NCBI GenBank assembly: GCA_021325675.1
Contig: JAJTCM010000009.1
Span: forward strand, 1-64,000
Direction: 5' to 3'
DNA: 64,000 nt
Origin: Crocinitomicaceae bacterium
GTDB taxonomy: Bacteria; Bacteroidota; Bacteroidia; Flavobacteriales_D; Crocinitomicaceae
Both the position numbers and the translations under genes were made by a program. Positions 1-12,698 of the stretch are shown here, piece by piece. Position 1 is the stretch's first letter. Every line of letters begins with the position of its first letter. The notes under the pieces were generated by a model that did not search any database, was not told the origin of the DNA, and saw only the letters and a program-made list of their open reading frames with translations.

Positions 1-2352
1 CAGTTCCTTCAGGTTAATCTCATTTTGATATGAAGTCAAAGTGTACTTTCCTACTTCGGTTCCGTTCAGATCAAACAGGCTCACTTTCATTTCTTCGTTA
101 GCACTTTTCTTGATTTTCAGTAAGCGTTCAGTTTCTAAAGGGTTTGGGTAAACCAGCAGTTTGTTTTCCGGTTGGGTTTCTTCTGCAACGTTAAGCTCAA
201 AAGTCGTGCACCAGTTTTCACTTGTGTTGGTAACAATCGGCTCGTTGAAATCAAAATAAATATACGCCGTATTGTAAATCTTCTCATCTAATTGCATCGG
301 GTTTTTAGGACGGATCGCATATTCAACATAACCTTTCGAACCTTCCGGGTTGGATAAGCTGTCGGCCAGCATGATATTCGTGAAACGGAATTGCAGCCTG
401 TTCCCGTTCAGTGTAGTGCTCACCGGGTGGCTCGAATGCACCTTTCTGAAAGTAGACAGGTCCAGCAGCTGATCGAGCGTGTCTACCAAAGTTACGTTAA
501 TTGCAGGAGAATTTCCGGTATTCTGGAAGTGGATCGTATAGCGGATCTCATCATCAAAGCCCGGATCGATATAAGCGGGATGCGTCTCTTTCATATTCGG
601 ATCGTAGGAATCAAACACTGGGAAAATTTTCACCTGGCTATTATTAGGCATGTCCAGGTCACCGTTTGGCGGTGTAATCTGCGTTTGAACAAAAATCAGA
701 TCACCTGCATTGGCAGTTGTATCAACAAGGAAGCGTAAGTTGTAGTCAAAGAAATCCGGAATTTCGCTCATTGGGATCGTGAAAGATAATAGTAAAGTAT
801 CTCCAAGGAAAGATTGACTGATATTCAAACTCGAATCGGCTTCCAGGAAACTCACAGGCCCTAATACTTTTGTCTCTACCTGCACAGCACTATCCAGCAA
901 GGCAGAATCCATTACTGCACAATTCAATTGCCCGTTATAGTAACCATTCCCCAATATAGTTAATAAATCAAAATCAAAGGAAGGTACGGCACGACGGCTT
1001 TGTCCCATGTAAAGAACGCTGACATCAAAACCAGCATCCTGTATAATCAAAGTATCACAAGCCAGCTCAAAGTTCTGAACTATATGTCTGTTGGAATCAT
1101 TGACAACAATATCGGAAGCATATAGCTGGCTGGAACAGGATTTCCGCAAAACGCATTCGCTCGTGTCAATCAATACTTTGTAGGCGCCATTCGGAACAGA
1201 AAAAATATAAGCCCCATCCGTATGTGAATACATTTTTTGAACTAGGTTGTCATTCTCATCGTAGAGCGCAACAGGGACCTGGCTCAAAGCCAAATCCGTC
1301 GCTTGGTTAAATTCGCAGTTCGGGTTCAGATCGTGGTACACATTCCCGGTAATCGTTTTAAATTCAACCGGGCAGTTCAACCACATGATCTCATTGTAAT
1401 ACGGATCGCTGCACATGTTCAGCCCCATGCCTACATTCGGAATGTAATTCGGGTGGCAAAAATCTCCAACGGGTTCAATATGCAGATACTCCAGACTTTG
1501 CGGATAAGGTGGCAAACAGTTGAAATTTGTAACAAGTCTCAGACTTCTCAACCGTTCCGGAAAACTGTGTATCGTGAGCGTAATAGTAACAGGAAAACTG
1601 ATATCCAATGATTGTAAGGATTCAGGCAAAGCAGGAATTGTATCCACCTCATACCATTCCAGTTTAATGTGTTTAAGTGATGATGGAAGGTTAGCAATTA
1701 CATCAGGATCATAGCCGAGTTCGTATGATTTAACATAAAAACTATCCATTTTTACAGCATTGTCTCCATCCGGGTAAATGAGTTTCGCAGTATTCATGTC
1801 AATAATTGACAAAAACTCCAGTGAATCGGGAAAGTTCCTGATATGCATCGTATCATTGAAGAACATTTCATTCGTGTGGTCAAACTCAAGTCTTTTGATC
1901 TTATTTGGTAAAATACCCGTATTCAATATCTTACAGCCTTCGAAGCGCAGGTATTCAAGTCCTTCCGGATAAGCAATCATCTGATCAAGCGGACTGAGGA
2001 CATTTATTCCTTCAAAATCCAGGTTGATTACCGTAGGAGGAACGTAGAACGGATTTTCGTCCCCTAAAGCATCCCAGTACACATTCAGGGTTTTCAGGTT
2101 TCTGAAGTATTGCATATCACTGGGAATCAGGTTATGACATGTGGCCACCCCGTCCAGGTCCAGGCTTTCTGCATTGAGTACAGCGGGACATAAAGTATCC
2201 AGGATATAAACATCCGTTTCTGAATCAAAGCTGATACACGCCGGAAACTTAATTTTTAAACGGTTAGCCAGGCAATTGTCTTCAAATTGGTATTGTGCGG
2301 AAAGAAAAGTTGCGAGAATCAGGTTTATACATAGAGTAACTGTTTTTTTCAT
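1..2352 (-). CDS. T9SS leucine-rich surface protein, 3' end outside window
   Basis: Open for 784 codons from the ATG at 2352 to the window edge with no stop, so the C-terminus is missing. Residues 1-20 form a signal peptide ending LSAQ. Residues ~40-300 are irregular leucine-rich segments with recurrent 'LPSSLKHI / LPESLQSL / FPERLRSL' phrases. Residues ~330-400 resemble an SdrD-B/carboxypeptidase-regulatory-like fold (VYHDLNPNCEFNQ). Residues ~575-715 carry the conserved block seen in many T9SS proteins (YDPNMKETHP...IRYTIHFQNTGN...NTSENWC, DUF7619-like, from memory). A type A sorting domain begins near residue 735 (VYPNPLETERLL) and is cut off. The inferred role is an outer-surface binding or adhesion protein. 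It is transcribed divergently from rpsO across a 217-bp gap. Confidence 0.85.
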   Translation of the reverse strand, partial: MKKTVTLCINLILATFLSAQYQFEDNCLANRLKIKFPACISFDSETDVYILDTLCPAVLNAESLDLDGVATCHNLIPSDMQYFRNLKTLNVYWDALGDENPFYVPPTVINLDFEGINVLSPLDQMIAYPEGLEYLRFEGCKILNTGILPNKIKRLEFDHTNEMFFNDTMHIRNFPDSLEFLSIIDMNTAKLIYPDGDNAVKMDSFYVKSYELGYDPDVIANLPSSLKHIKLEWYEVDTIPALPESLQSLDISFPVTITLTIHSFPERLRSLRLVTNFNCLPPYPQSLEYLHIEPVGDFCHPNYIPNVGMGLNMCSDPYYNEIMWLNCPVEFKTITGNVYHDLNPNCEFNQATDLALSQVPVALYDENDNLVQKMYSHTDGAYIFSVPNGAYKVLIDTSECVLRKSCSSQLYASDIVVNDSNRHIVQNFELACDTLIIQDAGFDVSVLYMGQSRRAVPSFDFDLLTILGNGYYNGQLNCAVMDSALLDSAVQVETKVLGPVSFLEADSSLNISQSFLGDTLLLSFTIPMSEIPDFFDYNLRFLVDTTANAGDLIFVQTQITPPNGDLDMPNNSQVKIFPVFDSYDPNMKETHPAYIDPGFDDEIRYTIHFQNTGNSPAINVTLVDTLDQLLDLSTFRKVHSSHPVSTTLNGNRLQFRFTNIMLADSLSNPEGSKGYVEYAIRPKNPMQLDEKIYNTAYIYFDFNEPIVTNTSENWCTTFELNVAEETQPENKLLVYPNPLETERLLKIKKSANEEMKVSLFDLNGTEVGKYTLTSYQNEINLKEL

Positions 2353-2997: not shown

Positions 2998-5157
2998 ATG
3001 AATATAGGAATCAAAAGGTCCATCACTACCGGAGGAAAAGAAATCTCCATCGAGACAGGCAAGTTGGCGAAACAAGCTGACGGCTCCGTAGTGTTACAAA
3101 TGGGCAACACCGTGTTGCTGGCGACAGTAGTTGCTGCACCGGAAGCAAAAGATGGAGTAGACTTTTTACCGTTAACGGTAGACTACAAAGAGAAATTCGC
3201 AGCTGCGGGACGTATCCCGGGCGGATTCTTCAGAAGGGAAGCACGTCCTTCCGAAATGGAAATCCTGATCATGCGTTTGGTGGACCGCGCTTTGCGTCCA
3301 TTATTCCCGGATGATTACCACGCTGAAGTTCAGTTGATGATCCAGTTACTGGCTTACGACGGTGAACACCAGCCGGATGCACTTTGCGGCCTGGCAGCTT
3401 CGGCAGCAATCGCTGTTTCAAACATCCCGTTCAACGGACCAATGTCTGAAGTACGTGTTGGACGCATCAACGGTGAGTACATCATCAACCCTACCCTTTC
3501 AGAAATGAAGCAGTCGGATATTGATATCATGATTGCAGGAACGATCAAAGACATCGTGATGCTGGAAGGTGAAATGCAGGAAATTTCCGAGATGGAAATG
3601 GTGGAAGTTATCAAGCTTGCCCACAAATCCATCATCGAGCAATGCCAGTTCCAGATGGACCTCGCAAAAGAAATCGCAACCGCTTTCCCAAAAAGAGAAT
3701 ATTCCCACGAAACGCACAACGAAGAAGTTAAGCAGAAAGTATACGACCAGTGTTTGGAAAAATGTAAGGAAGTTGCTCGTATGGGCTTAGCTAACAAAGC
3801 AAAGCGCACGGAATTGTTTGATGCGATCAAAACAGAATTCAAAGCACAATTCAGCGAAGAAGAGCTGTCTGAAATCAGCGGCTTCATCTCCGTTTACTTC
3901 TCTGAAGTGAAGAAAAAAGCGGTACGTTACGTAATGCTCCACGAGGGCAAACGTCTCGACGGCCGTAAATTTGACGAAATCCGTCCGATCTGGGCAGAAA
4001 TCGATTACCTGCCGATGGTTCACGGTTCTGCCGTATTTACACGCGGGGAAACGCAATCCTTGACTACCCTGACTTTGGGCGGTAAAATGGACGAGCAAAT
4101 GATCGACAACGCAACTTTCCACGGAACAGAGAAGTTCATGCTGCATTATAATTTCCCGCCATTCTCAACAGGTGAAGCGAAGCCAATCCGCGGAACTTCC
4201 AGAAGAGAGATCGGTCACGGAAACCTGGCACTGCGCGCCCTCAAGCCTGTTTTGCCGGATGATAACGCATACACGATCCGTTTGGTGTCCGAAATCCTCG
4301 AATCTAACGGTTCTTCTTCCATGGCTACGGTTTGTGCAAGTACACTCGCCCTGATGGACGGTGGTGTTCAGATCAAAGCGCCGGTTTCCGGTATTGCAAT
4401 GGGATTGGTTGCTGACGAAGGTAAATTCGCCGTATTGTCTGACATCCTCGGAGATGAAGATCACCTGGGTGACATGGACTTTAAAGTAACCGGTACTTCC
4501 AAAGGGATCACCGCTTGCCAGATGGATATCAAAGTGGACGGTTTGCCATACGAAGTACTGATCCAGGCATTGGAGCAGGCGAAAGCAGGACGTTTGCATA
4601 TCCTCAACAAAATCATCGAAACAATCGCTGTACCGAACCCGGATTTCAAACCGCAAACTCCGCGTATCGAAGCATTCAACGTACCAAACGATATGATCGG
4701 TGCTATCATCGGGCCTGGAGGAAAAATTATCCAGGGCTTGCAGAAAGACACCAACACGTCGATTACGATCGAAGAGCTTGAAAACGGTGAAGGCCGCGTT
4801 CAGGTAATGTCTAACAACGGTGACGATATGAAAGAAGCCGTTCGCCGCATCCGCCAGATCGCTTTCCCTCCGCAAGTGGAAGAAGGCGCTGAATACGAAG
4901 GCAAAATCAAATCTTTACAGGCTTACGGATGCTTCGTTGAAATCCTGCCTGGAACAGATGGTTTGATCCACATCTCCGAATTCAACTGGGATAAAATCGC
5001 TAAAATGGAAGATGTCTGCAAAGAAGGTGACCTCGTTCGTTTCAAAGTGATCGGTAAAGACCCAAAAACTAAAAAATGGAAATTGTCACGCAAAGTATTG
5101 CTGCCAAGACCGGAAAGAAAAGAAAACGAGCAAACGACAGAACAGTCACAAGCTTAA
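2998..5157 (+). CDS. pnp: Polynucleotide phosphorylase
   Basis: Protein of 719 residues, typical of bacterial PNPase, the phosphorolytic 3'-5' exoribonuclease of the RNA degradosome. In order it has: a first RNase PH domain ([26 protein letters not shown]), a helical linker, a second RNase PH domain ([17 protein letters not shown]...[10 protein letters not shown], then [19 protein letters not shown]), a KH domain ([13 protein letters not shown], ~residues 563-575) and an S1 RNA-binding domain ([19 protein letters not shown]). A Glu-rich, Gln-rich tail closes it. The ATG at 2998 follows an A-rich leader without a clear ribosome binding site. The 158-bp gap after rpsO also holds a CTTTCA/TGAAAG inverted repeat (around 2952-2974) just before the gene. 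PNPase is autoregulated through its leader in E. coli; whether that applies here is unknown. Confidence 0.98.
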
Positions 5158-5428: not shown

Positions 5429-6061
5429 ATGAAAGCATTCCTTGTTATTATTGCTGCGTTACTGATCTCAGTGCAGATGAGTGCGCAAACCTACGCCGTT
5501 GGCGACCGCCTGGAGGCCCGGGAAAATGATGGGCTTTGGTATGTCGTGCGGGTCCTGAAACACGACCAGGGGCGTTACCTCGTTCACTGGGAAGAATACA
5601 CCGATTCACTCGATCAATGGCTGACCGTCGACCGTCTTCGTCCTATGGCTATTCCGCAATTTTATGTTGGGGACCATCTCGAAGGACTTGAAGTTGATGG
5701 TAAATGGCATCCTGTTACCGTACTGGAAATTTCTCCGGAAGGTAAATACAAAGTACACTGGGAAGGTCATGAAAACAGCTACGATCGCTGGCTCGAGCCT
5801 GCCCACTTACGTCACATTTCACCCTCACGCATGGATACGTGGATGAGCCTGCGGGTCCCGATAGTCTATATCGAAAACCAAAGCAATCAAGCCATCAAGT
5901 ATAACTATTTAGCTGAAGGCGTGGATGGCGGCGGAGTAATTTATCCCGGCCAGCGTGATTACATCCGGTATGCCCCGTTAGGCGGTGTGCTGCTTATCAA
6001 CGGCAAGCAGCACATGGTCTTTACCCGGGAACAAAACGGGCAGATCATCGTGATCCGTTAA
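5429..6061 (+). CDS. Secreted protein with tandem Tudor-knot-like units (paralogue 1)
   Basis: Protein of 210 residues. A signal peptide (1-20, ending SAQ) is followed by two ~50-residue units at ~24-72 and ~79-130. Each has the pattern VGD-L-E....DG-W..V.VL........Y.VHWE......D.WL....LR, with the 'VHWE...YDRWLEPAHLR' core that resembles chromo-barrel/Tudor-knot or agenet folds. A third conserved region (147-210: VYIENQSNQAIKYNY...GGGVIYPGQRDYI) matches the C-terminus of the next gene, so the two are paralogues. Chromo-barrel folds usually bind modified peptides or nucleic acid inside cells; a secreted version has no function I can name. It has its own promoter and terminator, so it is monocistronic. 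No T9SS sorting domain is seen. Confidence 0.85.
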   Translation: MKAFLVIIAALLISVQMSAQTYAVGDRLEARENDGLWYVVRVLKHDQGRYLVHWEEYTDSLDQWLTVDRLRPMAIPQFYVGDHLEGLEVDGKWHPVTVLEISPEGKYKVHWEGHENSYDRWLEPAHLRHISPSRMDTWMSLRVPIVYIENQSNQAIKYNYLAEGVDGGGVIYPGQRDYIRYAPLGGVLLINGKQHMVFTREQNGQIIVIR

Positions 6062-6085
6062 GATTTTTATTGAGTTATTTTTCAG

Positions 6086-6117
6086 AACCAACAGGACTGC
6101 GGTCCCGTTGGTTTTTT
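6086..6117 (+). terminator. Intrinsic terminator
   Basis: Stem AACCAAC-A-GGAC / GTCC-C-GTTGGTT with a TGCG loop and a run of six T. It ends the preceding Tudor-knot-like gene. Confidence 0.92.
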
Positions 6118-6144
6118 ATTTTAGGGCCGCTCATGAAAGTTGTT

Positions 6145-6178
6145 TTGGCACGGTTTTTCTCAAAAACACGCGCCAAAA
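6145..6178 (+). repeat. 34-bp palindromic element, copy A
   Basis: Begins TTGGCACGG and ends CGCCAAAA; the two ends are near inverted repeats around a CAAAAACAC-containing centre. Thirty of 34 positions match the - strand of 26493-26526. It lies 135 bp before the second Tudor-knot-like gene. The TTGGCAC half looks like a sigma-54 -24 box, but the -12 element is wrong. Confidence 0.7.
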
Positions 6179-6293
6179 CCTCAAATAATAACTTACTTCT
6201 CCAACAGATATTTGATTGATCCTGTGGCTTCGCCGTTTACGTACCCTTCGGTCTCAATTTTACGTTTACGTTTTCAATTCTCATTTCTTTTCA

Positions 6294-6301
6294 TATCTTT
6301 G
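6294..6301 (+). promoter_or_regulatory. Promoter -7 box
   Basis: TATCTTTG, an exact TAnnTTTG match, lies 12 bp before the ATG at 6314. It supports that ATG over upstream in-frame ATGs such as 6140. Confidence 0.65.
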
Positions 6302-6313
6302 AATAAAAACACC

Positions 6314-6991
6314 ATGAAAAACAACATCCTGTTATCTACTCTCTTCCTGCTTACAAGCTGGGCTTTCCAGGCGCAGGACTTCAAAGCAGGCGAAACCGTT
6401 ATGGCTTTGGAAAACGACGATTTGCTCTGGTATAAAGCGACCATTCTTGAAACGGGAAGTGAAAAATGTAAAATCCATTGGGAAGGATTTTCTTCCGAAT
6501 ACGATGAATTTATCAACAATGACAGTTTCTGGAAAGAAGGCATGCCTTTCCTGGTTGGCGACAAGCTCCAGGGCCTGGAAACCGACGGAAAATGGTATAA
6601 CGCCAAAGTCCTGGAAATCAATGGCAGCAAATACTTCATTCACTGGGGCGGCTTCAGCTCCGAGTATGACCGCTGGATTTCATACGATTCCCTGCGTTTG
6701 CCAACGAAAGAAAATTACATCGCTGAAGGAAATTTTAACACCAATGCTTCTTCTACGAACGGTAGTTCCTACGGAAGCAGCCGCATCGGGATTATTTACC
6801 TGGAAAATAAAACCGGGCAAACCGTCAAATACACGTATTCCGGGGACGGATCAAGCGGCGGCGGCACGATTTACAACAATCAGAAAGACAATATCAAAAA
6901 TGCCCCGATTGGCGGTGAAATCAAAGTCAATGGCACTTATTTCATCACGATTTCCAAAGGACACGACGGGCAGACTGTTATTATTAAATGA
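6314..6991 (+). CDS. Secreted protein with tandem Tudor-knot-like units (paralogue 2)
   Basis: Protein of 225 residues when started at 6314. The frame is open further upstream to an ATG at 6140, but the signal peptide (MKNNILLSTLFLLTSWAFQAQ) and the promoter box at 6294 fix the start. Two units at ~22-73 and ~76-125 repeat the 'KIHWEGFSSEYDEF' and 'FIHWGGFSSEYDRWI' motifs. A Ser/Asn/Thr-rich linker (~137-155) leads to the conserved C-terminal region (IIYLENKTGQTVKYTY...GGGTIYNNQKDNI). Compared with paralogue 1 it differs mainly in having this linker. Adjacent duplication is the simplest explanation. The likely location is periplasm or cell surface. Confidence 0.85.
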   Translation: MKNNILLSTLFLLTSWAFQAQDFKAGETVMALENDDLLWYKATILETGSEKCKIHWEGFSSEYDEFINNDSFWKEGMPFLVGDKLQGLETDGKWYNAKVLEINGSKYFIHWGGFSSEYDRWISYDSLRLPTKENYIAEGNFNTNASSTNGSSYGSSRIGIIYLENKTGQTVKYTYSGDGSSGGGTIYNNQKDNIKNAPIGGEIKVNGTYFITISKGHDGQTVIIK

Positions 6992-7106: not shown

Positions 7107-8231
7107 ATGAGAAAAATAATTACCCTGTATTTCGCCTTAGTGGCATCTTCCATTGTTTTAGCACAAACCGTTAAGCTCAAAATCACCTACAAGGATTACC
7201 CTGTAACCGATTCCGACATCACCATCAAAATCGGCGATGCAAGCATTGGCCAGGGACGAACGGACGGCGACGGAAACGTTTCCATCATGTGCAGTAACCT
7301 CGTTACGAGAAATATCGATGTTTACGGAAGCAAGCAAACAGCAAACACGACCAAAAACTGGGACGTGAAAGGTTATGTCACGCTGGATAACAATAATTTT
7401 TACCACCTGAAAATGGAAGTCATGGCGAAAGAAATGGCGGATGCTTCCGGTGGTTTTATGACTGAAAATCAAATAGCTGCCATGTGGGGCCTGACTGCCA
7501 GCGGACGAAACGATGCCCCAAACACGAATTCCGGGGAAAATACCAACACGAATACCGGTGGAAGCAACTCAAATCCTTCAGGCGGAACAAGCAGTAGCCC
7601 GGATGACGAAATCCCGGACCTCACTCAAATGCGGGAAGATAACCTCATCGCCTACAAGCAAAACCTGGAAAACGATATTATCCGCTACGAGCGCAAAATC
7701 AAGCGGGGTGAGCAGGACATCAGCGAAGCGAGGTCGGAAGGCAAATCACAAACCGAAATCCGTCGCCTGGAAATTGACCGCCAGATAGACGTCCTGACAA
7801 AGGAGAAAAAAGAAATCCAGCTGCGGGAAACCAATGCACGTATTGCCAAAAGTGAGTTGCCATTTGAGGAACGCAAGCAAAATGAGCTGCGTAAAGACGA
7901 GATCAGGAACGAAATCAGCAAGCTGAAAGAAGAAGATAAGAAACTGAAAAAAGAAAATGCCGCTGCGGAAGACGTAAAGGCTGTTGAAGAAGAAAAAGCG
8001 AACCACAGCGACGAGGCTATTGCCAAAAAAAGCAAATTTACCCTCAAAACTGAGCTGCTGGAATTAAGGGCAGACCTCAGGCGCAAAAACCTGAATTACA
8101 AAATCCAGTCCGGGTCCGGTGTGCATCCCGAAGACAAACTGGCTGTCATGAGACAGGAAATTGCGGAAATCGAAGCCCTCATTGCCCGCTACGAAAAACG
8201 CCTGGCTGAAATCGAAAAACAGGGAGAATAA
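7107..8231 (+). CDS. Secreted coiled-coil protein
   Basis: Protein of 374 residues from the ATG at 7107, which gives a clean signal peptide (MRKIITLYFALVASSIVLAQ). Residues ~21-120 look like a beta domain with 'GRTDGDGNVSIMC', similar in feel to carboxypeptidase-regulatory or Ig-like plug domains. Residues ~140-168 are a low-complexity Asn/Ser/Thr/Gly linker. Residues ~170-374 are a long, highly charged coiled coil (EISKLKEEDKKLKKENAAAE and similar). I do not recognise a family. It may be a periplasmic or surface spacer or structural protein. It sits between the Tudor-knot-like pair and the SprB-repeat protein, all on the same strand but each with its own promoter-like box. Confidence 0.8.
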   Translation: MRKIITLYFALVASSIVLAQTVKLKITYKDYPVTDSDITIKIGDASIGQGRTDGDGNVSIMCSNLVTRNIDVYGSKQTANTTKNWDVKGYVTLDNNNFYHLKMEVMAKEMADASGGFMTENQIAAMWGLTASGRNDAPNTNSGENTNTNTGGSNSNPSGGTSSSPDDEIPDLTQMREDNLIAYKQNLENDIIRYERKIKRGEQDISEARSEGKSQTEIRRLEIDRQIDVLTKEKKEIQLRETNARIAKSELPFEERKQNELRKDEIRNEISKLKEEDKKLKKENAAAEDVKAVEEEKANHSDEAIAKKSKFTLKTELLELRADLRRKNLNYKIQSGSGVHPEDKLAVMRQEIAEIEALIARYEKRLAEIEKQGE

Positions 8232-8306: not shown

Positions 8307-11300
8307 ATGGAAAAACTCTCACGCGCCCTCTTTATTACTTTTTTTCTTGTAAACTGTGCCCAGGCGCAGCTCGTGGACCCTTTTTCAATCCGCCACCAGG
8401 TAATTCAGAAAGGGGGACTGGTTTTTCTGGCAAACACCGCCATGGGCTGTGGCTCTTGCGCAGCGCACACAGAGATGCCGCCCGGAGGAACCGGCACGAA
8501 CGACTTTACCAATATGAGCTTTGTGGACATTGACAGCGATGCTTCTACCTTCATGTCCAGCTCCGATCAGCTTGACCTGCCGAATTGCAGCGAAATTGTC
8601 TGGGCGGGCTTATACTGGGAAGGCATGCTCAGTACACCGGCATCCAACACCACGAATTACAACTCAAGGAACCAGGTGAAACTGAGTGTCGGCGGAAGCG
8701 CTTACCAGAACCTGACCGCTGATGAAATCCTGGATAATGCCACCGGGAAAACTTCCTATTACTGTTTCAAAAACATTACTTCCATTGCCCAGGCTAACGC
8801 AATTGATGCGAATTACCGCGTTGCTAATGTTGTAGCCCAAACCGGAAACAATTTCTTTGGCGGATGGACGATTGTGGTGATTTACCGCAACATTTACGAA
8901 TCGATGAAAAACATAACGGTTTTCGATGGTCTCGCGTATGTAGGCTCAGGAAATCCTGTCAACATCAACCTCAACGGTTTTTTAACGCCACCGGCAGGGC
9001 CAGTCAATTTTGAGCTCGGGGTTGTTGCACACGACGGCGACCGGGGTAGTACAGGCGACCAGCTGGAATTTAACGGTACAGGAACATTCGTGAACCTGAG
9101 CGACGCGCTCCATCCCATTGATGATATGTTCAACAGTACGATTTCCAGGAACGGCGTGCTCACTCCGTTGAGGAATCCGGGTTATAACAACAACCTTGGC
9201 CACGATGCGAATATTTTTTCACCCGACAACTCTACTTTTAATTTTATCGGGAACTCTGCCACCAGCGCTGAAATCCGGGTTTCCTCTTCATCAGAAAATA
9301 TCTTAACGAGCGTCATCACTGCGGCAATTGATATTTACCTGCCTGATCTCAGGGCTTCCGTTTCTTACGATGATCTCAATGCCGGAGCCGTTGAGCCCGG
9401 TGATATCCTGGAATATTCCATTACAACCAAAAATATCGGCTCAGATGTGTCCATGAACACTTTTCTTTTGGATACGCTGGATGAACGCTTAAGCTACATT
9501 CCCGGAAGCTTGCAGGTTTCTTTCGGCCCTAACAGCGGTGTGAAAACAGATGCTGCGGACGCTGACCAGGCTGAATTCATTGTAGCCGACAATGTAATTC
9601 GTGCACGAATCGGTACGGGAGCAAACGGCGCAGCAGGTGGAAATGTAGTCAATTCCTCCACAGGGGCAGACAGTACGGTGATTAAATTTCGTGTCCGGCT
9701 GATCGATGAATGTGCGCCCTGGCAATGCGGACCCGTGCTCGAAAACAAAGCTTTTCTCTTTGGAACAGGCCAAATTTCAGGGATCACAAGCGGAAATAAC
9801 GGCGCTTCTGATTTGCTTGACCAGGATGGCTGTCCTTCACCCGAAAGCGGTTTAATTGCCGTCAACAGTAACTGCCCTCCCCTGGTGATTACTTACACCG
9901 ATTCAATATGCGTCGGGGAAACAATCTCCCTGAGCTTTCCTGACTCTCCCGGGTTCACATTTAACTGGACGGGGCCGGGAGGTTTTACTTCTACGGATGA
10001 CAATCCCACGATCACAAATGCCCAAACTACCCACTCCGGGGATTACGTCCTACACCTTAGCTATGATGGTGAAATTTGTATGGACGATACAGTTGCGCCG
10101 GTTTTCGTTTCTCCAAGGCCAACCGTTCAGCTCCTGGACCTGGAAGATGATACCTGCTACCACGCAGGCGGCGGTTCTATCCGTGTCAGCGGCGGCGGGA
10201 ACAGCCCTTTTACCTATTCCTGGTCAAACGGTGATACGGACTCACTTGCGCAAAACCTCCTGGCAGGGTCCTACACCGTAACAGTCACAGATAATTTCGG
10301 TTGCACAGTTTCCCAAGCGTATTCCGTGGACGAGCCACCGCTTTTTGAAGTCAATGCAAGCATTACTTCTGATTACAACGGCAGGGACATCAGTTGTTTC
10401 AATGCAGCTGACGGAAGCGCTCTCGCAACAGCCAACGGCGGAATCAGTCCTTACGATTATGAATGGCTCGTACTGGGGCAAACTACAGCGGCTGTCAGCA
10501 ACCTGGATGCCGGACAATATATCGTTGAAGTAACCGATGACAGTGGCTGCAAAGCCCGCGATACGATAACACTTGTTGAGCCGGACACCGTTTCCGTCAG
10601 CGCAAGCGTGACAAACATCCTATGTTTTGGCGACGCAACCGGTGCAATCAACGTAACGATCGGCGGCGGAACAACACCTTATTCTTCTTTGTGGTCGAAC
10701 GGTGCAGCAACAGAAGACCTGGCCAACCTGACAGCCGGAACTTATACGGACACCGTGACTGACGCCAACGGCTGCGAAAATATCCGTTCTTTTACAGTTA
10801 CCCAACCTTCCGCTTCCATGAGCCTTACGGCCAGTTCCGTAGATATTCTCTGTAACGGTGATGCGACGGGAAGTATTGACCTAAGTGTTTCCGGCGGGGT
10901 TAGCCCGTATGATTACTCCTGGTCAAACAGCGCAAACACACAAGATCTTACCGGCTTAACAGCAGGCACTTACACTGTAACGGTGACAGATGACAACAAC
11001 TGTACGGAGACTTTCTCAGAAACATTGACCGAACCGACCGCGATCAACGGCAGCTTAAATGCTGTCAACCCGGTTTGCCAGGACGGAAGCCAGGGGAATA
11101 TCGACCTGACCGTGAATGGCGGCGTTCCGGGCTATACTTTTTTATGGAACAACGGTGAACAAACAGAAGACATTACAGGTCTGTATGCCGGGATTTATTA
11201 CTGTGAAATTACGGATGCCAACGGTTGCCTGGAAACCGTTCAAACGACACTCACCGACCCGGACGCAGTTCATATTGTGGGAACAACGACAGACGTTCTT

Positions 11301-12698
11301 TGTTACGGCAACGCAACGGGATCTATTGACATTACACCTTCAAACGGAACTATGCCTTATACATTTGACTGGAGCAACGGCACGGCAAATGAGGATCCAA
11401 CGGGTTTAACAGCCGGTCTTTATTCCGTAAATGTAGTGGATAATAACAGCTGCGGCGGATTTATTTCCTTTATCATCGGAGAGCCTGACACCCTCGTTTA
11501 TGTTCAATCCACAGTAATAACCGACGTTTTGTGCTTCGGAAATGCTACCGGCGCGATCAATATAGAAGTCAGCGGGGGAACAGCCCCGTACGATTATCTG
11601 TGGAGCAACAGTGACATGACCCAGGACATCAATGGTTTAACAGCCGGAACTTATTCAGTAGACATTACCGATGACAACGGCTGCCAGCTTTCATACAGCG
11701 CTTCTGTTGATGAACCGGCAGAGCTTACTTTAACCGAAACCCATACCCCTGTTTTATGTTTCGGCGGTTCGACAGGCTCGGTCAATATTACAACAACTGG
11801 CGGAACCGGCACTTATGATTATATGTGGAACAACGGCCAGCAAACGGAAGATGTGAGCGGACTTGCTGTCGGAAGCTATTCGGTTACTGTTACAGATGAA
11901 AATAATTGCACGGACAATCTTTCGGTGACAATCACTCAACCGGTCTCACCGCTCAGCCTTTCAGCCGACTCCACGCCTGTTCTTTGCTTCGGTGGAAACG
12001 ACGGAAGCATTGACCTGACCGTTTCCGGCGGTACATCCGGCTACACGTTCCTGTGGAGCAATGATTCTATCGCTGAAGACCCGGACAGTCTCACAGCAGG
12101 TGATTACTCTGTCACAGTAACAGACGCTAATTCCTGTACGGAAACCTTAACAAGTACCGTAACCCAGCCCGCCAGCCCTGTATCCCTGACAATCAGCGCA
12201 AGTGCGATTTGTATGGGCGCAATGAATGGCGTAGCGGCTGTGACTGCTTCGGGCGGAACACCGTCTTACACTTATTTGTGGAGCAGCAGCCCGAATGACA
12301 CACTGGAAATTGCAGATAGCCTGGGCGTCGGGAATTATACCGTGACCGTCACCGACTCAAACGGCTGCGTGGAAACCATTTCTGCAAGCGTCGAACAGCC
12401 GGATGGCATGGAAGGCTGTGTTTCCCTGGATATGCCGAATATTTTCACACCGAACAACGACCTGGAAAATGATTACTATATCCCGGTTTTGGCTTCCAAC
12501 ATTACGCATTATCACATCGTGATCCTGAACCGTTGGGGACAGGTCGTTTACGAATCCAATGATTACAGTAAAGGCTGGGACGGTACGATTAACGGAAAAA
12601 ATGCCACGGAAGATGTTTACTTCTGGCTCGTTGATTATACAGACAGCTATGGCGATACCGGCAAGCTCCACGGAAACCTGACACTTGTACGCGATTAA
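8307..12698 (+). CDS. Giant T9SS adhesin-like protein with ten SprB repeats
   Basis: Protein of 1463 residues. Signal peptide 1-21 is followed by an N-terminal domain (~35-345) with CSEIVWAGLYWEG, a motif I associate with large DUF11-type surface proteins. A DUF11-like domain (~348-500: DLRASVSYDDLNAGAVEPGDILEYSI region) and an Ig/PKD-like stretch (~535-600: FNWTGPGGF) come next. Ten SprB repeats follow (~614-1368), each about 75 residues with CxG(D/N)ATGSI.....GG..PY.Y.WSNG....D...LTAG.Y.VTVTD.NGC. The protein ends in a type B (gliding-motility-associated) sorting domain: IFTPNNDLENDYY, NRWGQVVYES, GWDGT. SprB is the mobile gliding adhesin of Flavobacterium johnsoniae; this much shorter relative probably acts as a surface adhesin delivered by T9SS with a PorP/SprF partner. 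Confidence 0.93.
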   Translation: MEKLSRALFITFFLVNCAQAQLVDPFSIRHQVIQKGGLVFLANTAMGCGSCAAHTEMPPGGTGTNDFTNMSFVDIDSDASTFMSSSDQLDLPNCSEIVWAGLYWEGMLSTPASNTTNYNSRNQVKLSVGGSAYQNLTADEILDNATGKTSYYCFKNITSIAQANAIDANYRVANVVAQTGNNFFGGWTIVVIYRNIYESMKNITVFDGLAYVGSGNPVNINLNGFLTPPAGPVNFELGVVAHDGDRGSTGDQLEFNGTGTFVNLSDALHPIDDMFNSTISRNGVLTPLRNPGYNNNLGHDANIFSPDNSTFNFIGNSATSAEIRVSSSSENILTSVITAAIDIYLPDLRASVSYDDLNAGAVEPGDILEYSITTKNIGSDVSMNTFLLDTLDERLSYIPGSLQVSFGPNSGVKTDAADADQAEFIVADNVIRARIGTGANGAAGGNVVNSSTGADSTVIKFRVRLIDECAPWQCGPVLENKAFLFGTGQISGITSGNNGASDLLDQDGCPSPESGLIAVNSNCPPLVITYTDSICVGETISLSFPDSPGFTFNWTGPGGFTSTDDNPTITNAQTTHSGDYVLHLSYDGEICMDDTVAPVFVSPRPTVQLLDLEDDTCYHAGGGSIRVSGGGNSPFTYSWSNGDTDSLAQNLLAGSYTVTVTDNFGCTVSQAYSVDEPPLFEVNASITSDYNGRDISCFNAADGSALATANGGISPYDYEWLVLGQTTAAVSNLDAGQYIVEVTDDSGCKARDTITLVEPDTVSVSASVTNILCFGDATGAINVTIGGGTTPYSSLWSNGAATEDLANLTAGTYTDTVTDANGCENIRSFTVTQPSASMSLTASSVDILCNGDATGSIDLSVSGGVSPYDYSWSNSANTQDLTGLTAGTYTVTVTDDNNCTETFSETLTEPTAINGSLNAVNPVCQDGSQGNIDLTVNGGVPGYTFLWNNGEQTEDITGLYAGIYYCEITDANGCLETVQTTLTDPDAVHIVGTTTDVLCYGNATGSIDITPSNGTMPYTFDWSNGTANEDPTGLTAGLYSVNVVDNNSCGGFISFIIGEPDTLVYVQSTVITDVLCFGNATGAINIEVSGGTAPYDYLWSNSDMTQDINGLTAGTYSVDITDDNGCQLSYSASVDEPAELTLTETHTPVLCFGGSTGSVNITTTGGTGTYDYMWNNGQQTEDVSGLAVGSYSVTVTDENNCTDNLSVTITQPVSPLSLSADSTPVLCFGGNDGSIDLTVSGGTSGYTFLWSNDSIAEDPDSLTAGDYSVTVTDANSCTETLTSTVTQPASPVSLTISASAICMGAMNGVAAVTASGGTPSYTYLWSSSPNDTLEIADSLGVGNYTVTVTDSNGCVETISASVEQPDGMEGCVSLDMPNIFTPNNDLENDYYIPVLASNITHYHIVILNRWGQVVYESNDYSKGWDGTINGKNATEDVYFWLVDYTDSYGDTGKLHGNLTLVRD

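Follow-up and report, generated by a model that had tools for sequence, protein, structure and literature searches.

The closest described relatives of the genes considered here are the chromo-like domains of bacteria, those of Bacteroidetes included, which are consistently secreted. They come in two to six tandem copies, frequently as fusions with caspase-like domains, and have retained some of the aromatic cage (Kaur et al. 2018, PMC5906684). In the sections of that source drawn on here, secreted bacterial SH3 and chromo-like domains are treated as parallel and as sharing their partner domains; it is posited that the latter bind methylated-lysine-like groups on the peptides of murein or of the matrix, and the eukaryotic chromatin readers are proposed to be descendants of the secreted bacterial barrels. 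No ligand for any bacterial chromo-like barrel was found in the parts of the literature examined, where such binding is posited. The methyl-lysine pocket of the eukaryotic protein MRG701 is formed by H37, Y42, Y62, W65 and W69 (PMC5084153) and that of Eaf3 by Y23, Y81, W84 and W88; every alanine mutant of the latter was without binding, W84Y still bound, and the wild-type affinities were in the millimolar range (PMC7033311).

The window analysed in this study is the whole stretch of 64,000 nucleotides at positions 1 to 64,000 of contig JAJTCM010000009.1 of a Crocinitomicaceae bacterium (GCA_021325675.1). Two adjacent genes lie on its plus strand, between pnp (2998-5157) and a gene for an exported protein (7107-8231). 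Gene 1 (5429-6061, plus strand) encodes P0001, a predicted exported tandem chromo-like barrel protein of 210 residues, called from the open reading frame, its translation and Pfam matches; gene 2 (6314-6991, plus strand) encodes P0002, of 225 residues and predicted to be of the same kind from translation, Pfam and an AlphaFold model. The mechanical reading frame of gene 2 starts at a TTG at 6140, but the alternative ATG at 6314 is the plausible start and the TTG less so, because the signal-like stretch directly follows the ATG. Both proteins have a hydrophobic start, two barrels of about 50 residues and a tail of about 67 residues, and they are 38.0% identical over 208 aligned positions. The two barrel units and matching C-terminal region which had been read from the sequence at the outset are indeed present in both frames. 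The YDRW core given for these units is exact in the second barrels; the first barrels have LDQW and YDEF in its place.

The assignment of the units to the Tudor/chromo-barrel fold had been made by motif only in the original prediction and proved right. P0001 was above the curated Pfam cut-offs for Agenet (3.7e-6), Chromo (1.1e-5), Tudor-knot (9.5e-5) and MBT (1.6e-4), and P0002 for Tudor-knot (2.2e-8) and MSL3_chromo-like (6.1e-7). With the Tudor-knot model PF11717, for which the cut-off is 20.8 bits, the two proteins scored 22.7 and 34.3 bits, respectively. The PDB sequence matches of P0002 included L3MBTL3 (1.5e-7), EAF3 (2.3e-6) and PHF20L1 (4.2e-6), and MRG2 and the MBT repeats of L3MBTL1 were also brought up by the PDB sequence searches. 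When a profile of 11 bacterial barrels was used, L3MBTL3 was the best PDB match (E 2.6e-17), followed, at E below 1e-3, by MRG2, MRG701, MRG15, EAF3, PHF20L1 and MSL3. The AlphaFold model of P0002, built from four sequences, has a mean pLDDT of 79.8 and a pTM of 0.53; strands at residues 28-68 and 84-123 form the two barrels, followed by a disordered linker, with values under 50 at residues 142-155, and a tail made up of beta strands only (157-224). Foldseek placed MBT and FXR Tudor structures on top for this model (E 7.5e-6 at best), with 65 matches reaching E <= 0.001. Superposition with VIA on the MRG15 chromodomain gave Z 10.2 and rmsd 2.0 over 59 aligned residues; for barrel 1 on the MRG2 chromodomain the values were Z 9.7 and rmsd 1.1 over 53, and for barrel 2 on TbTudor Z 8.9. 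Thus, computation supports the presence of chromo-like/Tudor SH3-fold barrels in both proteins.

With MRG15, MRG2, MRG701 and Eaf3 the pair shares the chromo-barrel fold and the +0/+3/+7 cage motif described below. However, those are single-barrel proteins of eukaryotic chromatin, whereas the pair has two barrels and a signal-like start in each protein, and a Pfam scan at E up to 1 found no MRG domain in either. The MBT repeats of L3MBTL1 and L3MBTL3 share the tandem arrangement and provided the best sequence match in the PDB, but the Pfam MBT model was over its cut-off on gene 1 only. MBT repeats are also longer and interlocked.

Both proteins are inferred to be exported. In each, a hydrophobic run and a small residue are followed by glutamine, and the signal-peptide-like stretch would cover 5429-5485 in gene 1 (residues 1-19, ending in SA before QT) and 6314-6373 in gene 2 (residues 1-20, ending in QA before QD), the cleavage sites being our reading. 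By eye and by simple hydropathy both proteins have signal-like starts, in keeping with the signal peptides claimed for them. A hydrophobic stretch near a possible start was found by the same crude test in all 22 other barrel proteins examined, although pnp, one of four cytosolic controls, likewise scored 2.42, at an internal methionine. By eye the starts of the 22 proteins look signal-peptide-like, four of them lipoprotein-like (L020, L036, L037 and L066). The outcome named in advance as speaking against the original prediction, a common fold lacking Tudor/chromo similarity or no support for a signal peptide, did not occur. The Tudor-knot family takes its name from RNA binding in eukaryotes, and the two proteins could accordingly be imagined as cytoplasmic binders of nucleic acid or of the nucleoid, their N-termini being no signals at all; given the hydrophobic run and the small residues before glutamine in both proteins and in their relatives, this is very improbable. 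Carriage by the type IX secretion system (T9SS) was considered and rejected: an NCBIfam search at E up to 10 found no type A or type B sorting domain on P0001 or P0002, and the same search detected the positive control, the window protein at 8307-12698 (TIGR04131, 4.4e-16). That control, of 1463 residues, has Gly/Ser/Thr-rich repeats and, at its C-terminus, a T9SS type B sorting domain; it suggests that the DNA is from a gliding/T9SS-bearing Bacteroidota.

The pair belongs to the secreted bacterial chromo-like group and is a good but ordinary example of it. Signal peptides, which are predicted here for the pair, tandem barrels, the aromatic cage and the occurrence in Bacteroidetes are all features that Kaur et al. 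(2018, PMC5906684) describe, so the secreted tandem form cannot be called unusual: the published pattern, as far as the sections used here go, is the same, and the form recurs in the genomes searched, as seen in the 22 hydrophobic starts. The C-terminal tail of the pair is a difference, since those sections make no mention of it; it may be included in Supplementary Material S3 of that paper.

Exact degenerate patterns were scanned for in 84,980 species genomes. This method, which can miss relatives, gave two of them, L013 and L014, both from metagenome genomes of Bacteroidota. With P0002 as query, 7 of 299 genomes of the order had a match at E <= 0.001, the own genome being one of them; elsewhere the matches fell in the barrels, and only that of L007 extended past them (query residues 81-167). 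The Tudor-knot model found 11 genomes among 395 of the class and one among 14 named control genomes (Deinobacterium chartae), and a four-protein profile found 4 among 395 of the phylum; the samples are partly overlapping. The 22 barrel proteins were taken from these matches and from the L013 and L014 genomes, with duplicates and the broken L003 and L063 left out, and they include short exported proteins of about 140 residues, the three-barrel L007 and five fusions to caspase-like domains (L008, L010, L020, L036 and L037). The fusions come from genomes of the same phylum and, like the pair, have tandem barrels, in predicted exported proteins or lipoproteins; they differ in the caspase-like domain, none being found in P0001 or P0002 by the Pfam scan. 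Pfam C14 matched L008 at 2.7e-7, and the caspase-like call for the other four was made by eye. In all five the chromo-like barrels are C-terminal, as in the architecture that Kaur et al. (2018, PMC5906684) name. Long exported proteins with near-identical N-terminal barrels followed by unnamed regions are also present in the genomes of L013 and L014 (L067 and L068). In L013, an NCBIfam match to MyrrNad was set aside (12.9 bits against a cut-off of 40). The barrels are thus spread over many genomes as short exported proteins or caspase-like fusions, with nothing host-related about them, and in an unsystematic look no nuclear-targeting or injection-linked gene was seen adjoining the pair. These observations make it most implausible, the least credible of the readings weighed here, that the proteins are readers exported to act on a eukaryotic host or grazer by binding its methylated proteins, for which the arguments come down to the likeness between the barrels and methyl-lysine readers of eukaryotes, and to the signal-like starts.

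The barrels were compared for the cage residues among P0001, P0002 and the proteins of L013 and L014. A motif with aromatic residues at positions +0, +3 and +7 is W, F or Y throughout in six of the eight barrels, and in seven when histidine is counted; the regular expression also matched two non-barrel places in P0002, both of which were left out. In gene 2, barrel 1 (6380-6535, plus strand, residues 23-74) has W56, F59 and Y63 and barrel 2 (6548-6703, plus strand, residues 79-130) W111, F114 and Y118. In gene 1, barrel 2 (5660-5818, plus strand, residues 78-130) has W111, H114 and Y118, and barrel 1 (5492-5647, plus strand, residues 22-73) is the exception, keeping W54 and Y57 with L61 in place of the third aromatic. 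A tyrosine or histidine in strand 2, with an aspartate four residues before it, is found in all eight. The spacing of the motif is that of Y62/W65/W69 in MRG701 (PMC5084153) and of Y81/W84/W88 in Eaf3 (PMC7033311); this correspondence is one of spacing and aligned ranges, because the residue-level alignments cover L3MBTL1 and L3MBTL3 only. As matched by motif spacing, the barrels keep at least a subset of the cage aromatics.

Based on these results, the reading that we prefer, with a probability of roughly 0.45, is that the barrels bind groups of the cell envelope which are methylated-lysine-like or otherwise cationic. A Sec-type signal would be removed before the glutamine, and the mature protein would consist of two chromo-like SH3-fold barrels, a flexible linker and a compact beta-sandwich tail. 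In three of the four barrels of the pair the aromatic cage and the nearby aspartate could bind a methylated-lysine-like or other cationic amino group on peptides of the envelope or matrix, with avidity gained from two barrels in a row. Binding was probably lost in gene 1 barrel 1, where leucine stands at one of the cage aromatics, and the tail may serve to attach the protein to a partner or a second copy of itself. Several points speak against methyl-lysine binding, namely the millimolar affinities of Eaf3, the neighbouring genes, which give no functional hint, and the missing third aromatic in gene 1 barrel 1. The main rival is that the barrels act as bacterial SH3 domains, binding peptidoglycan stem peptides or another envelope polymer with no methyl specificity, and that the cage aromatics serve for general packing or for stacking on sugars or peptides. 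This would fit the parallel drawn between secreted SH3 and chromo-like domains in the cited sections of PMC5906684, and the signal-like starts agree with a periplasmic or surface place, but the best matches are MBT, MRG and Tudor structures rather than SH3b models and most barrels have retained the cage motif, so that we regard it as less likely, if still the most serious competitor.

The relationship between the two genes bears on a further explanation. The protein of L013 (223 residues) is 56.4% identical to P0002, tail included, and that of L014 is 47.2% identical, with a tail that aligns poorly; P0001 is 38.0, 34.3 and 30.8% identical to P0002 and the proteins of L013 and L014, respectively. 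P0002 is therefore closer to L013 than to its own neighbour, and either the split of the pair predates that of the lineages or gene 1 has evolved faster. This makes the suggestion that the pair was duplicated in place doubtful, at least as a recent event. In a tree of 11 barrels no inner branch was well supported, and gene 1 barrel 1 had a long branch. When the whole own genome was searched with protein 1, the pair and one sub-threshold match (E 0.034, with stops) were found. Among the five genomes of the genus sample the pair occurs in the own genome only; a double barrel without tail is present in G019, no match was found in G100 or G1015, and the match in G1014 (E 0.00999, six stops) was taken as chance. 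The barrels could be mainly structural, as spacers or modules for oligomerisation in a small envelope protein, and gene 1 could be a copy that diverges fast and is possibly decaying, as the low identity of gene 1 to its three relatives (31-38%), the long branch of its first barrel, the lost cage aromatic and the absence of the pair from the other four genus genomes searched might suggest. However, gene 1 is intact, the aspartate and the strand-2 aromatic or histidine are kept in both of its barrels and the second barrel keeps the motif, and we consider this explanation unlikely, more so than SH3-like binding.

Within the preferred reading, that of binding to cationic groups in the envelope, a narrower and bolder version would have the proteins read methyl-lysine or trimethyl-amines outside the cytoplasm, as two exported double readers of methylated side chains of the cell's own envelope that the tail anchors or pairs. 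We hold this to be a long shot, if less remote than a cytoplasmic or host-directed role. If true, it would show directly that chromo-like barrels were reading methyl-lysine before chromatin arose, as proposed in the sections of PMC5906684 used here. P0002, a small, soluble protein that has two barrels and most cage residues and stands beside a paralogue that has lost one, is a convenient subject for testing the proposed descent of the eukaryotic chromatin readers from secreted bacterial barrels.

The tail covers 5858-6058 in gene 1 (residues 144-210), where it was delimited by alignment with gene 2 and L013 and had no Pfam match, and 6788-6988 in gene 2 (residues 159-225), both on the plus strand. 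By computation the tails of the pair and of L013 are related. None of these three had a Pfam match at E up to 10, and the full proteins had no NCBIfam match over the cut-off. In the best isolated model of the gene 2 tail (pLDDT 95.5; the other four models 93.3, 83.9, 61.3 and 35.2) seven strands were formed. Foldseek against the PDB gave VHL as the best match (E 0.055), followed by thaumatin-like and other proteins, with no known fold at E <= 0.001, and VIA gave none at Z >= 8, its best value of 6.8 being in the range that the tool rates a common arrangement. The best match among viral structures had an E of 0.011, and a chain of the Flavobacterium johnsoniae BAM complex (9n2d_E) reached Z 6.1, tied with unrelated rows. 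The tail thus models as a small beta-sandwich, its structural matches being those of a common beta-sandwich.

A search with the tail matched 8 of 395 genomes at E <= 0.01, the own genome included, the other seven (E 1.2e-4 to 0.008) being near chance level over that many genomes. The match in L029 covered nearly the whole tail in a short protein with a signal-like start and scored 20.7 bits, which none of 2000 shuffles reached, but it was picked out of 395 genomes, and L029 is tentatively the sole plausible bearer of the tail beyond the pair and L013. The L029 protein (about 1495-1839, minus strand) consists almost only of the tail-like domain, with an N-Cys start and a cysteine near the end. 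L028, which scores above L029, was rejected by eye, its match being to the terminal part of a glycine/threonine-rich protein. The tails of L014 and L007, which look alike by eye (N then Cys, and Cys at the end), were not accepted either; 121 and 332 of 2000 shuffles, respectively, reached their scores. A tail search with five rows matched 2 of 247 genomes, the own genome and that of L029, the latter by construction. The description of the tail as lineage-specific is partly supported, in that the tail looks restricted: it is covered by none of the Pfam or NCBIfam models, and beyond the pair only L013 had a clear copy, with a tentative stand-alone copy in L029. This unnamed tail is the main new detail of the pair and is possibly a new small exported domain.

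In the surroundings of the pair, neither an operon nor conserved neighbours were found; when nine window genes were compared with L013 and L014, matches came from the pair alone, and no neighbour is taken as conserved. Separate transcription of the two genes is possible, as judged from the intergenic sequence. A terminator-like hairpin with a T run lies 3' of gene 1 (6086-6118, plus strand), seen in the sequence and not listed by the terminator scan, and a match to TAnnTTTG, TATCTTTG, lies 5' of gene 2 (6294-6301, plus strand), with the ATG 13 bases downstream. We take TAnnTTTG to be the -7 motif of Bacteroidota promoters; it occurs 63 times in the window against 52.8 expected, which is near chance frequency. 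The G+C content is 0.507 in gene 1, 0.448 in gene 2 and 0.477 in pnp, and 0.545, 0.549 and 0.521, respectively, at third positions. With base composition being ordinary, a mobile or foreign origin was not supported, and no repeat pair framing the two genes as the trace of a mobile element was judged convincing.

The stretch after pnp was examined at 10 of 19 loci, the own included, one of which (L045) stops at the contig end; at the eight others no barrel gene was found within about 1.5 kb each. At L046, in genome G1015 of the same genus (86% complete), pnp is directly followed by the counterpart of the gene at 7107-8231, and the spacing between the aligned blocks of pnp and that gene is 118 bases there against 1949 in the window. 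The protein encoded at 7107-8231 has 374 residues and a signal-like start, with no Pfam or NCBIfam family over the cut-off. The phage records gave no match to the pair, and the one match in a viral contig (L070, viral_contigs), which falls in a protein of tail-fibre appearance, was taken as chance. Two Deinococcus plasmid records match the pair, in the barrels only.
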